A stretch of 64,000 nucleotides of DNA from the NCBI RefSeq assembly GCF_023078495.1, contig NZ_CP095742.1:1302001-1366000 (forward strand). The letters run 5' to 3'. The notes beneath the pieces are model-generated. The model saw only the letters and a program-made list of their open reading frames with translations. It made no database searches and had not been told where the DNA came from. Position numbers and translations under genes: made by a program. Position 1 is the stretch's first letter. Every line of letters starts with the position of its first letter. The DNA comes from Luteibacter aegosomatissinici. GTDB lineage: Bacteria; Pseudomonadota; Gammaproteobacteria; Xanthomonadales; Rhodanobacteraceae. Positions 59,053-61,318 of this stretch are shown piece after piece.

Positions 59053-60630
59053 TCACTTCCCCGGTGAACTATCCAGCGATGCGCGCAAGGTTTCGAACTG
59101 CTGCTGGTAGTGCTTGCGCTCCATCATTTCGATCAGCACGCGCAGGCTGCGCGCCGAATCAAGGTGCTGGCGCGACCAGGGCCGGGAGCGGCCGCGCACC
59201 GTTTCCTGCCATGAGGCGAAGCTCTGCCGGGGCGACAGGCGGGCGCCGGGAATGTTTTCCAGCTTGGCCAGCGCCGGGTTGCCCGCCCAGCGCACGTTGC
59301 GTACCTGCTCGGCACGCATCCAGACGACGGCGTTGTGGGCATCGGCTTGCAGCGGCATGAAGATCACGCCGGCGGCGAGCGCCGTCACGGCCGGATCATC
59401 CAGCGCGGGGAACGCCTTGCTGATCTCGTCGGTATGCACCACGCCGGCGATGCCATCGGGGGAGCTGGCATGCTCGTGCGCGCCGATCGTGTCGCGGATG
59501 CGCAGCAGCGCCGCGGCATCGGGCAGGTTACCGTGGCGCATGACCCGGTCACCGGCAAACACGGCGATGCCATCGGCATCCACCACCTCGAGCAGCTCCG
59601 GTGCGAGCGATGCGAGCAGTTCCGCATCGATCCGTTCGCTCTCGTTGAACGCCGTGATGAGTTTTTCGCGGACGGTAAGCAGGGTGGATTCGACTTCGAT
59701 CTTGGCCAGCTCCTCGATCGCCGACACACGCGACGCGAACGCGCGCGCCACGGCATCGGCCACCTCGCGCATCTGGTGGTCGGCGAAGAACGGGCTGTAG
59801 TGGTGGCACGCGATTAGGCCCCACAAGCGGCCGCTGGTGATGATGGACGCAACCAGCGTGCCGGTGACCCCCATGTTGCCCAGGTACTCCAGGTGCACGG
59901 GCGACACGCTGCGCAGCGAGACGTCTGACAGGTCCGTTGCCTCGCCGGTTTGCGGATCGTGCGCGGGCGCGATGGGCGAGGGGACGTATTTGCAATCACT
60001 GATCTGGCGCACGCGGTTGCGCAGGTACAGCGCCCGCGCCTGCACGGGGATATCGGTCGAGGGGTAGTGCAGGCCGAGGTAGGCTTCGAGCTCGTCGTTG
60101 CGCGCTTCGCCCACGACCTCGCCATGCCAGTCGTGGTCAAAGCGATACACCATGACCCGGTCGTAGCCGAGCAGGTTGCGTACGGCCCGTGCGACGCGCT
60201 GCGAGGCACGCTCCACCGTCGCGTCGTTCTCCAGTTTGTGCGTGAGGTCGTAGGCAACGCGGATCGGATCGTCTTCGAAATACGCCTCGCGTGGCTCGAT
60301 CTCGATCAGCCATCGCGTGTCGTAGGCGTGCACGGAGGCGCGCCAGTTACCGCTGCGGTGGCCGCGCGGGAAACTCACGGGCGACCACGGTGTATGGGCG
60401 GGACGCTCGTCGTCATCAAACAGCTGCGAGGGCAGCGTCACCACATCGCGCAGCGGCGCATTGAGCAGCGCATCGAGATCCACGCCAAGCAAATCCACGG
60501 CGTTCTCGCTTGCCTGTAGCACGCGTTGCGAGGTGGCATCGACCACGAGGAGTACGCCGTGCGGTTGCACGGAGCCGGGGATGTGGATGGGTTCGCGGTC
60601 GCAAGCAGTGAGGTCGGGCAGGTCAGACAT
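59053..60630 (-). CDS. bphP: Bacteriophytochrome with photosensory core only (PAS-GAF-PHY, no kinase)
   Basis: 525 residues. The biliverdin-attachment Cys is C10 (MSDLPDLTACDREPIHIPGSVQPHG). PAS ~10-110; GAF ~130-310 with STDIPVQAR, the DIP motif, and His residues in IACHHYSPFF; PHY ~320-500 with the tongue motifs RWAGNP and SPRQSFASWQ. A helix (SARSLRVLIEMMERKHYQQQFETL) follows and the protein ends LDSSPGK. No histidine kinase, PAS9 or GGDEF/EAL domain is present, and the downstream sequence goes straight to bpt. It overlaps bphO by 8 bases. Confidence 0.93.
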   Translation of the reverse strand: MSDLPDLTACDREPIHIPGSVQPHGVLLVVDATSQRVLQASENAVDLLGVDLDALLNAPLRDVVTLPSQLFDDDERPAHTPWSPVSFPRGHRSGNWRASVHAYDTRWLIEIEPREAYFEDDPIRVAYDLTHKLENDATVERASQRVARAVRNLLGYDRVMVYRFDHDWHGEVVGEARNDELEAYLGLHYPSTDIPVQARALYLRNRVRQISDCKYVPSPIAPAHDPQTGEATDLSDVSLRSVSPVHLEYLGNMGVTGTLVASIITSGRLWGLIACHHYSPFFADHQMREVADAVARAFASRVSAIEELAKIEVESTLLTVREKLITAFNESERIDAELLASLAPELLEVVDADGIAVFAGDRVMRHGNLPDAAALLRIRDTIGAHEHASSPDGIAGVVHTDEISKAFPALDDPAVTALAAGVIFMPLQADAHNAVVWMRAEQVRNVRWAGNPALAKLENIPGARLSPRQSFASWQETVRGRSRPWSRQHLDSARSLRVLIEMMERKHYQQQFETLRASLDSSPGK

Positions 60631-61318
60631 GGTGGCCGGGATCCTGGAGCGTGCGTTGGAAGCGCGCGAACATACGCTGCGCGCCGGCGAGGGCAAGCTG
60701 TTGGCTGGCGGTATCGGGCAGCGCGCGGTCCAGTGCATCCTGGAACCGCCGCCAGCGGCCCGGGGCGTGTTCGCCCAGGCCGTAATAGTGATGGGGCCGC
60801 GCGGGAAAGCGCTGGCGAAGATGGCGCACGATCACCTGGCCGCCCAGGGCCGAGCCTTCGATGACATAAAGCTCGCCCCAGAACACAGCGACTACCTCGG
60901 CCGCCGCGTCATCCCCACCCCCCGCGTCCACACCGCACCCCCCTGTAGGAGCGCGCCCTGCGCGCGACATCTTTTCGCAGGGCGCCACAGGATCTGTGGC
61001 GGTTTCGGGACCTGTAATCGCGCCCAAGGTCGCTCCTGCAAGGACACCACCCGGTGCGGCGATGTCGTTGTCGAGGGCGGGGATGCGTGACTCGTAGGGC
61101 CACACCGTGGCAATCGCAGCGATAGCCGCCGCGCGTTCACCTTCCCACTCGCGGAACAACCGCCGCTGCGCCGCCAGCAGCTCCGCATAACCGGCGTCGT
61201 CCATCGCCCCCGACATCAGGGCTTGCATGCCCGCCGTGGCTTCGGCGGCGTCGTGGGCGGCGCGGGTGCGTTCGCGCAACAGGCGGTGGGCGGGAAGGTG
61301 GGCGGCGGCGCCGTCCAT
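60623..61318 (-). CDS. bphO: Heme oxygenase (biliverdin-producing) carrying an in-frame REPIN
   Basis: 231 residues. An N-terminal helix with the proximal His candidate (LLRERTRAAHDAAEATAGMQALM), AGYAELLAAQRRLFREWE, then, after the insert, VFWGELYVIEGSALGGQVIVRHL and GRWRRFQDALDRAL identify a bacterial heme oxygenase. It makes the biliverdin chromophore for the downstream phytochrome. Residues ~93-125 are translated from a REP-type repeat (60945-61039), in the variable loop before the conserved YVIEGSALGG helix; without it the protein would be ~200 residues, normal for the family. Activity is therefore uncertain. Confidence 0.85.
   Translation of the reverse strand: MDGAAAHLPAHRLLRERTRAAHDAAEATAGMQALMSGAMDDAGYAELLAAQRRLFREWEGERAAAIAAIATVWPYESRIPALDNDIAAPGGVLAGATLGAITGPETATDPVAPCEKMSRAGRAPTGGCGVDAGGGDDAAAEVVAVFWGELYVIEGSALGGQVIVRHLRQRFPARPHHYYGLGEHAPGRWRRFQDALDRALPDTASQQLALAGAQRMFARFQRTLQDPGHHV
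60945..61039. repeat. REPIN variant inside bphO
   Basis: Left arm GTAGGAGCGCGCCCTGCGCG, right arm GCGCCCAAGGTCGCTCCTGC. The inner part ACATCTTTTCG is shared with copies 3 and 4. Translated on the minus strand without a stop. Confidence 0.75.

Follow-up and report, generated by a model that had tools for sequence, protein, structure and literature searches.

We consider it likely that the heme oxygenase BphO of the genus Luteibacter contains a permissive, disordered loop that acts as a persistent site for REP sequences, in which the occupant has been replaced over time and filtered for an open reading frame. In the window, that is, the whole 64-kb stretch of DNA analysed, which belongs to a genome of 4.99 Mb (G000, with G001 to G022 denoting the other Luteibacter genomes compared), this loop is filled by a REPIN that lies in the bphO-bphP operon as follows.

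59053–60630, minus strand: bphP, a PAS_2-GAF-PHY bacteriophytochrome with a putative start at 60630 and an 8-nt overlap with the end of bphO
60623–61318, minus strand: bphO, heme oxygenase of 231 aa, with the ORF open across the REPIN (PF01126, E 8.8e-12, in two stretches)
60881–61084, minus strand: the whole variable stretch, 68 codons long, with the conserved motifs SR and WGELYVIEGS on its two sides
60945–61039, no strand assigned: REPIN of 95 bp, two inverted GTAG-class REPs plus spacer, coding in frame
60945–60968, plus strand: intact REP arm GTAGGAGCGCGCCCTGCGCGCGAC, with partial copies in the genome at 94–97% identity over 31–35 nt
60969–61016, no strand assigned: REPIN spacer of 48 nt, with only a loose likeness to the bphO-site spacers of G010 and to REPINs in intergenic DNA
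61017–61039, minus strand: decayed REP arm GCAGGAGCGACCTTGGGCGCGAT, from the REP caller

The REPIN that a first-pass annotation had placed at 60945–61039 is confirmed by an inverted-repeat search (arms at 60941–60953/61031–61043 and 60956–60967/61018–61029) and by the REP units mapped there. Its proposed in-frame translation also holds, the 231 codons of bphO being open with no stop across the REPIN, as does the reading of its flanks as heme oxygenase: the Pfam Heme_oxygenase profile matches the product in two stretches, one on either side of the REPIN (45.7 bits; cut-off 23). The element lies, as had been described, in the loop before the distal helix, and the first 8 or so codons of 60881–61084 form the LxxDL end of the preceding helix. 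Of the paired palindrome, the inverted pair stands but two whole arms do not, since in G000 a single arm is intact and its partner has decayed. The hallmark of GTAG-class REPs, a short palindromic stem after a GTAG (or GTGG) head, is found in the intact arm, and the extragenic location typical of GTAG-class REPs and REPINs is not found here, as the element is coding. A bphP match is present in the 40-kb bphO stretch of 20 of 20 genomes (G006 excepted), and in the BphP of the window the Pfam domains found were PAS_2, GAF and PHY only, with no output domain among them.

The element belongs to a genuine repeat family, with copies far above chance: matches to the REP pattern number 617 in G000, compared with 27 for a backwards control pattern. 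A BLAST search of this genome with a 113-bp REPIN query gave 48 matches (40 scored of 379 first-look candidates), made up of bphO itself, 8 second matches at tested places and 39 other places. In an intragenic test of coding potential (settings of 90 nt and 0.1; coding model trained on the genes of G010 including its bphO), 15 of 17 bphO controls passed and none of the 39 other places did, in agreement with the earlier premise that REPs are normally intergenic. One of these places (L141) was considered as intragenic, its two sides agreeing in their best frame, and was rejected because the upstream frame stops before the REPIN. A chance look-alike in bphO is ruled out by shuffling: mononucleotide-shuffled DNA yielded 27 REP calls in 420 kb, so that approximately 0.01 call would be expected in a 150-nt loop.

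Among the 61 genomes searched for bphO, which include G000 and comprise 23 Luteibacter genomes, a match was obtained in 21, all of them Luteibacter; G015 and G021 contain REPs (277 and 517 pattern matches, respectively) and lack a bphO match. A class-wide search returned matches in 14 of 369 genomes at E ≤ 0.001, again with G000 included, and of the 13 distant others only Chiayiivirga flava served as outgroup. The alignment of the 21 sequences is conserved up to SR..L..D(L/I/V) and again from W/L-G-(E/M)-LYV(I/V)EGS, and the stretch between differs in every species. A hairpin-based caller detected REPs in the bphO of 16 of 20 genomes, with every call in this one loop; the truncated G006 gene is left out of this count, which becomes 17 of 21 with its one weak loop call. 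The G011 gene is counted on one weak call, whose off-consensus head is like that of look-alikes rejected in other genes; its foot and one weak match in its own genome (E 0.007) speak for a decayed REP. No REP was called in the bphO of G002, G007, G008 and G020, the G002 loop holding a decayed REP only and the G008 loop none, despite 565 pattern matches in that genome. The view of the element as a single odd insertion was thus wrong in scope, as the site is filled across the genus.

The loop REPs vary between species in reading phase, number and stem type, as illustrated by GTAGGAGCCCACCCTGTGGGCGAC in both arms of the G010 loop, GTAGGAGCCGATTCATCGGCGAT in G019, GTGGGAGCCGCTTCAGCGGCGAT in G005 and GTAGGAGCGCGCTTGCGCGCGAT in G016, and with the arms read in several phases the encoded peptides differ. 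Homologues with extra residues of unrelated DNA, which the first-pass annotation had named as evidence against its reading, were found in form only, the extra residues of most homologues being encoded by other REPs. When each loop was compared by BLAST with its own neighbourhood, matches were obtained for 18 of 21 loops (for G006 mainly through a duplicate stretch), compared with a mean of 0 to 0.6 for codon-shuffled loops. The left REP border lies 8–9 codons after SR in 8 of 16 loops. In G001 (L024/L081), the loop opens with the conserved LxxADL codons, and a REP overlaps them as though it had overwritten or matched coding sequence. The bphO gene of G006 is cut off at YVIEGSPQ, close to the end of contig CAJYHU010000291.1, and part of its loop recurs on this contig as an identical second copy of 93 bp, perhaps an assembly artefact.

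The bphO gene stands out among its neighbours. In the neighbourhoods compared (40 kb per genome, 64 kb for the window and 10 kb for G006), true REPs occur in one of 26 conserved anchor genes, bphO, and were not found in the other 25. REP calls within those 25 genes (one gene in seven genomes, the rest in at most three) were rejected as look-alikes with off-consensus heads; the calls in gene 6 of G005 and G019, which have an on-consensus head but an imperfect stem and lie where the coding sequence is conserved and free of gaps, were rejected likewise. That REPs are common in Luteibacter genes was thus not seen, either in the sampled neighbourhoods or at the 39 REPIN places of G000. Four intergenic gaps near bphO, at about 12.1, 15.5, 28.8 and 32.8 kb along the stretch of G010 as oriented, hold REPs in 12/18, 14/19, 11/17 and 13/17 genomes, respectively, and the bphO loop thus behaves like the most persistent intergenic REP sites. 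Stems in these gaps are closer to other REPs of the host than to those of the same gap elsewhere; as read from the sequences, intergenic REP sites near bphO outlive the sequences occupying them. At about 15.65–15.75 kb of the oriented G005 stretch (L101), a tandem array of 17-bp REP-head units was observed.

The stems in the loop mostly follow the host as well. We compared 150 REP units from bphO and six intergenic sites in 20 genomes (40–64 kb sampled in each; partial calls of G005 were dropped by the filter). The identity of bphO REP stems was 0.784 to other sites of the same genome (210 pairs) and 0.609 to the same site of other genomes (446 pairs), the latter being at the background of 0.608 for other sites of other genomes (3479 pairs). 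For 13 of 16 loops, the own genome ranked first of 20 (ties included), the exceptions being G013 (3rd), G000 (6th) and G001 (10th). As same-site stems are at background and own-genome stems are alike, the site persists and its sequence mostly follows the host. A single insertion in an ancestor that predates Luteibacter or stands early in the genus, with nothing thereafter but conversion of the arms in place to the host type and loss in G007, G008, G020 and G006, would explain why the same loop is used in nearly all clades, and the similar persistence of the four intergenic sites is consistent with it; however, the stems at the site carry no trace of a single ancestor and the spacers look different between clades, and we regard this history as unlikely.

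The well-supported clade of G005, G009 and G019, in which the arms differ and the spacer is kept, also speaks for an ancestral origin. In all three genomes the REPIN is 85 bp long, with a common 39-nt spacer of 72–82% identity (scores of 17–25), compared with scores of at most 8 and gapped identities of at most 72% against the approximately 35-nt spacers of their other REPINs (19 of the best-matching REPINs, from 111–120 matches per genome); one other G009 spacer also reaches 72% identity, at a much lower score. The G005 loop has the stem CGCTTCAGCG with a GTGG head in both arms, and the G019 loop the stem CGATTCATCG with a GTAG head in both arms. To judge by these sequences, the spacer and the site are inherited in this clade, and the arms were replaced or changed in step. 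We propose, tentatively and as a possibility that we would not rank as probable, that the loop is a site of landing and exchange where REP arms are swapped in situ by RAYT or recombination. The loop would then evolve in concert with the mobile repeats of the genome and be rewritten in each species, while the gene stays in use. This proposal is slightly weakened because the G005 genome, the clearest case, holds both stem types, so that a change to the host type is not unique there and may have run either way.

Repeated independent insertion at a preferred target, in which RAYT would place new REPINs in separate lineages and old ones would be deleted, is a serious possibility, although we would stop short of favouring it. 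In its favour, the left border falls at almost one point in four clades, and the spacer orientation differs between the sisters G003 and G022, whose loop spacers are reverse complements of each other (42/49, score of 35, compared with 3 for the best of 1000 shuffles). This reversal points to an inversion between the arms or to reinsertion. On the other hand, the common spacer of G005, G009 and G019 speaks for vertical inheritance in at least one clade, and REP-bearing loops have as few as 13 non-REP residues, fewer than the 28–35 residues of REP-poor loops, so simple insertion is not the whole story.

The genomes poor in REPs bear on the same question. Pattern counts, which cover both strands and only GTAG/GTGG REPs with a GCGA foot, so that REP-poor genomes may hold other classes, range from 277 to 1515 in 20 of 23 genomes and are near the control level in G007 (34, control 62), G020 (21, control 21) and G006 (38, control 27). 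These three genomes have the three shortest of the 21 loops, with 28, 32 and 35 residues, respectively, compared with 38–74 residues in the other 18; the chance of this coincidence is 1 in 1330 if the genomes are taken as independent, whereas neither this count nor the others given here are independent across related genomes. The three sit in different parts of the tree, in which the branches around G006 and G007 have low support (57 and 39), and the loop of the outgroup Chiayiivirga flava, as read off the alignment, has about 30 residues. A graded rise of loop length with REP number was rejected (Spearman 0.14, p 0.54, 21 genomes), so that the effect is one of presence or absence in three genomes, one of which (G006) is an incomplete metagenome assembly with 80% completeness. 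Shorter REP-free homologues, as expected for a REP-tagged coding sequence of the Di Nocera type, thus exist in G007 and G020, with lengths of 191 and 190 aa rather than the 198–200 residues that had been predicted for a protein without the REPIN. G007 is nested among REP-rich species, and its Y1_Tnp gene (L198) has two REPs beside it, yet its dispersed REPs are not above control. Dispersed REPs, including the one in bphO, were therefore lost in G007 or gained separately by its relatives; together with its 28-residue loop, this genome is in line with independent insertions.

Matches to Y1_Tnp, a profile that is not RAYT-specific, were found in 22 of 23 Luteibacter genomes compared with 5 of 14 controls, and REP calls lie beside 20 of 20 Y1_Tnp loci fetched, G000 included. 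The idea that the loop REPs are, as a rule, those at the RAYT-like locus was discarded, as the stem core is equal in only 6 of 16 cases, so that several loops hold another or older family. REPINs outside bphO, not each of which is proven intergenic, leave an average of 3.3 of 6 frames without a stop (n = 50), and open versions are thus not rare. The nine REPIN spans called in bphO are in no case divisible by 3, so that the frame must be made up by flanking bases or small indels.

Structure prediction is consistent with a tolerated loop, one of the options raised in the first-pass annotation. AlphaFold was applied to the 231-aa BphO of G000 and to the 191-aa REP-free orthologue of G007, with 12-row alignments, and predicted nine helices that are the same in both proteins, the distal helix of the 231-aa protein starting about 9 residues earlier than that of the G007 orthologue. 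The pLDDT is below 50 at residues 92–131 and at least 90 at 162 of 231 residues. Many invariant residues flank the loop on both sides in the 12 aligned species, among them H22, presumably the proximal histidine, and G155 and G159, which we take to be the glycines of the distal helix. Of 94 Foldseek matches in the PDB, the 50 that were listed (best E 1.6e-3, none below 0.001) are heme oxygenases or proteins fused to one, and the 14 PDB sequence matches listed are heme oxygenases. With conserved flanks and a predicted core that is essentially unchanged, these data do not support the alternative option of an enzyme disabled by the REPIN, and BphO is probably active. That bphO is instead a decaying pseudogene in which insertions are free to pile up appears very improbable: the accumulation of insertions would fit, and a dispensable light-sensing operon would be supposition, but none of the 20 complete bphO genes contains a stop, invariant residues lie on both sides of the loop in the 12 aligned species, and REP calls are confined to it.

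Based on these observations, we consider the following scenario the most likely, in which (i) REPs or REPINs spread by the RAYT transposase of each genome would reach the BphO loop or be converted there, the role of RAYT as mover being drawn from the REP literature; (ii) the point of entry would lie just after the DL codons, in the disordered loop of a tolerant gene; (iii) the occupant would be replaced as the REP population of the host shifts, with gene conversion or reinsertion as the presumed route of later exchange; and (iv) selection on an enzyme that presumably retains its activity would remove versions that close the frame. The outcome would be a loop of 38–74 residues in most species, with a largely or partly changing REP-encoded peptide, and one of 28–35 residues in REP-poor genomes.

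In-frame REPs in genes are already known. REPs and REP dimers occur inside ORFs, mostly as dimers or groups encoding 20–30 residues and possibly in flexible linkers or loops, and in two Xanthomonas species recB carries REPs that differ although their positions nearly coincide (Di Nocera et al. 2013, PMC3733652). That work, as far as its main text goes, concerns many DNA repair genes in various species and contains neither 'Heme oxygenase' nor 'Luteibacter', whereas here a single heme oxygenase loop is filled in 16 of 20 species, mostly with the REP type of the host. Rickettsia palindromic elements (as cited in PMC3733652) are likewise palindromic repeats inserted in protein-coding genes, but in various genes, unlike the GTAG REPs in one gene of Luteibacter. 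REPINs have been characterised as inverted REP pairs dispersed in the genome, and RAYT genes have adjoining REPs (PMC3116915); the REPINs described there are extragenic, in contrast to the coding bphO copy and its counterparts in the genus. In the REP 'orthoswitch', orthologous RAYTs of related strains differ in REP class, and new variants may partly replace old ones (PMC3686654). As described there, the switch is one of RAYT loci, with decay expected for the older dispersed copies, whereas here the occupant of a dispersed site within a gene is mostly of the host type. Among the open-licence papers listed for Luteibacter REPINs and RAYTs or for bphO palindromes, judged by title and the opening of the abstract, none deals with this case. 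As far as our searches reach, the new aspect is that one protein loop is filled genus-wide with mostly host-matched REPs.

If true, the exchange in place would mean that a protein is directly shaped by the concerted evolution of selfish DNA. The bphO gene, apparently intact in species after species, offers a view on how selfish DNA can rewrite a protein without breaking it, and its loop shows how proteins can gain new loop sequence from mobile repeats. The movement and turnover of REPs are still only partly understood, and a coding, frame-filtered site with REP-poor species as natural controls would allow insertion, arm conversion and inversion to be separated by strain sequencing.

The REPIN may also have an effect at the level of mRNA, the third option of the first-pass annotation, to judge by RNA folding: the REPIN RNA is predicted to be more stable than its shuffles (z −3.85), none of 200 of which folds as stably. 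Together with the persistent occupancy of the loop, this stability would suit a domesticated element, that is, a hairpin in the bphO-bphP message, or a REP-encoded peptide, kept for its function. We nevertheless consider domestication improbable, since the peptides have little common sequence and are read in different phases, and since G007 and G020 retain both bphO and bphP with short, REP-free loops.
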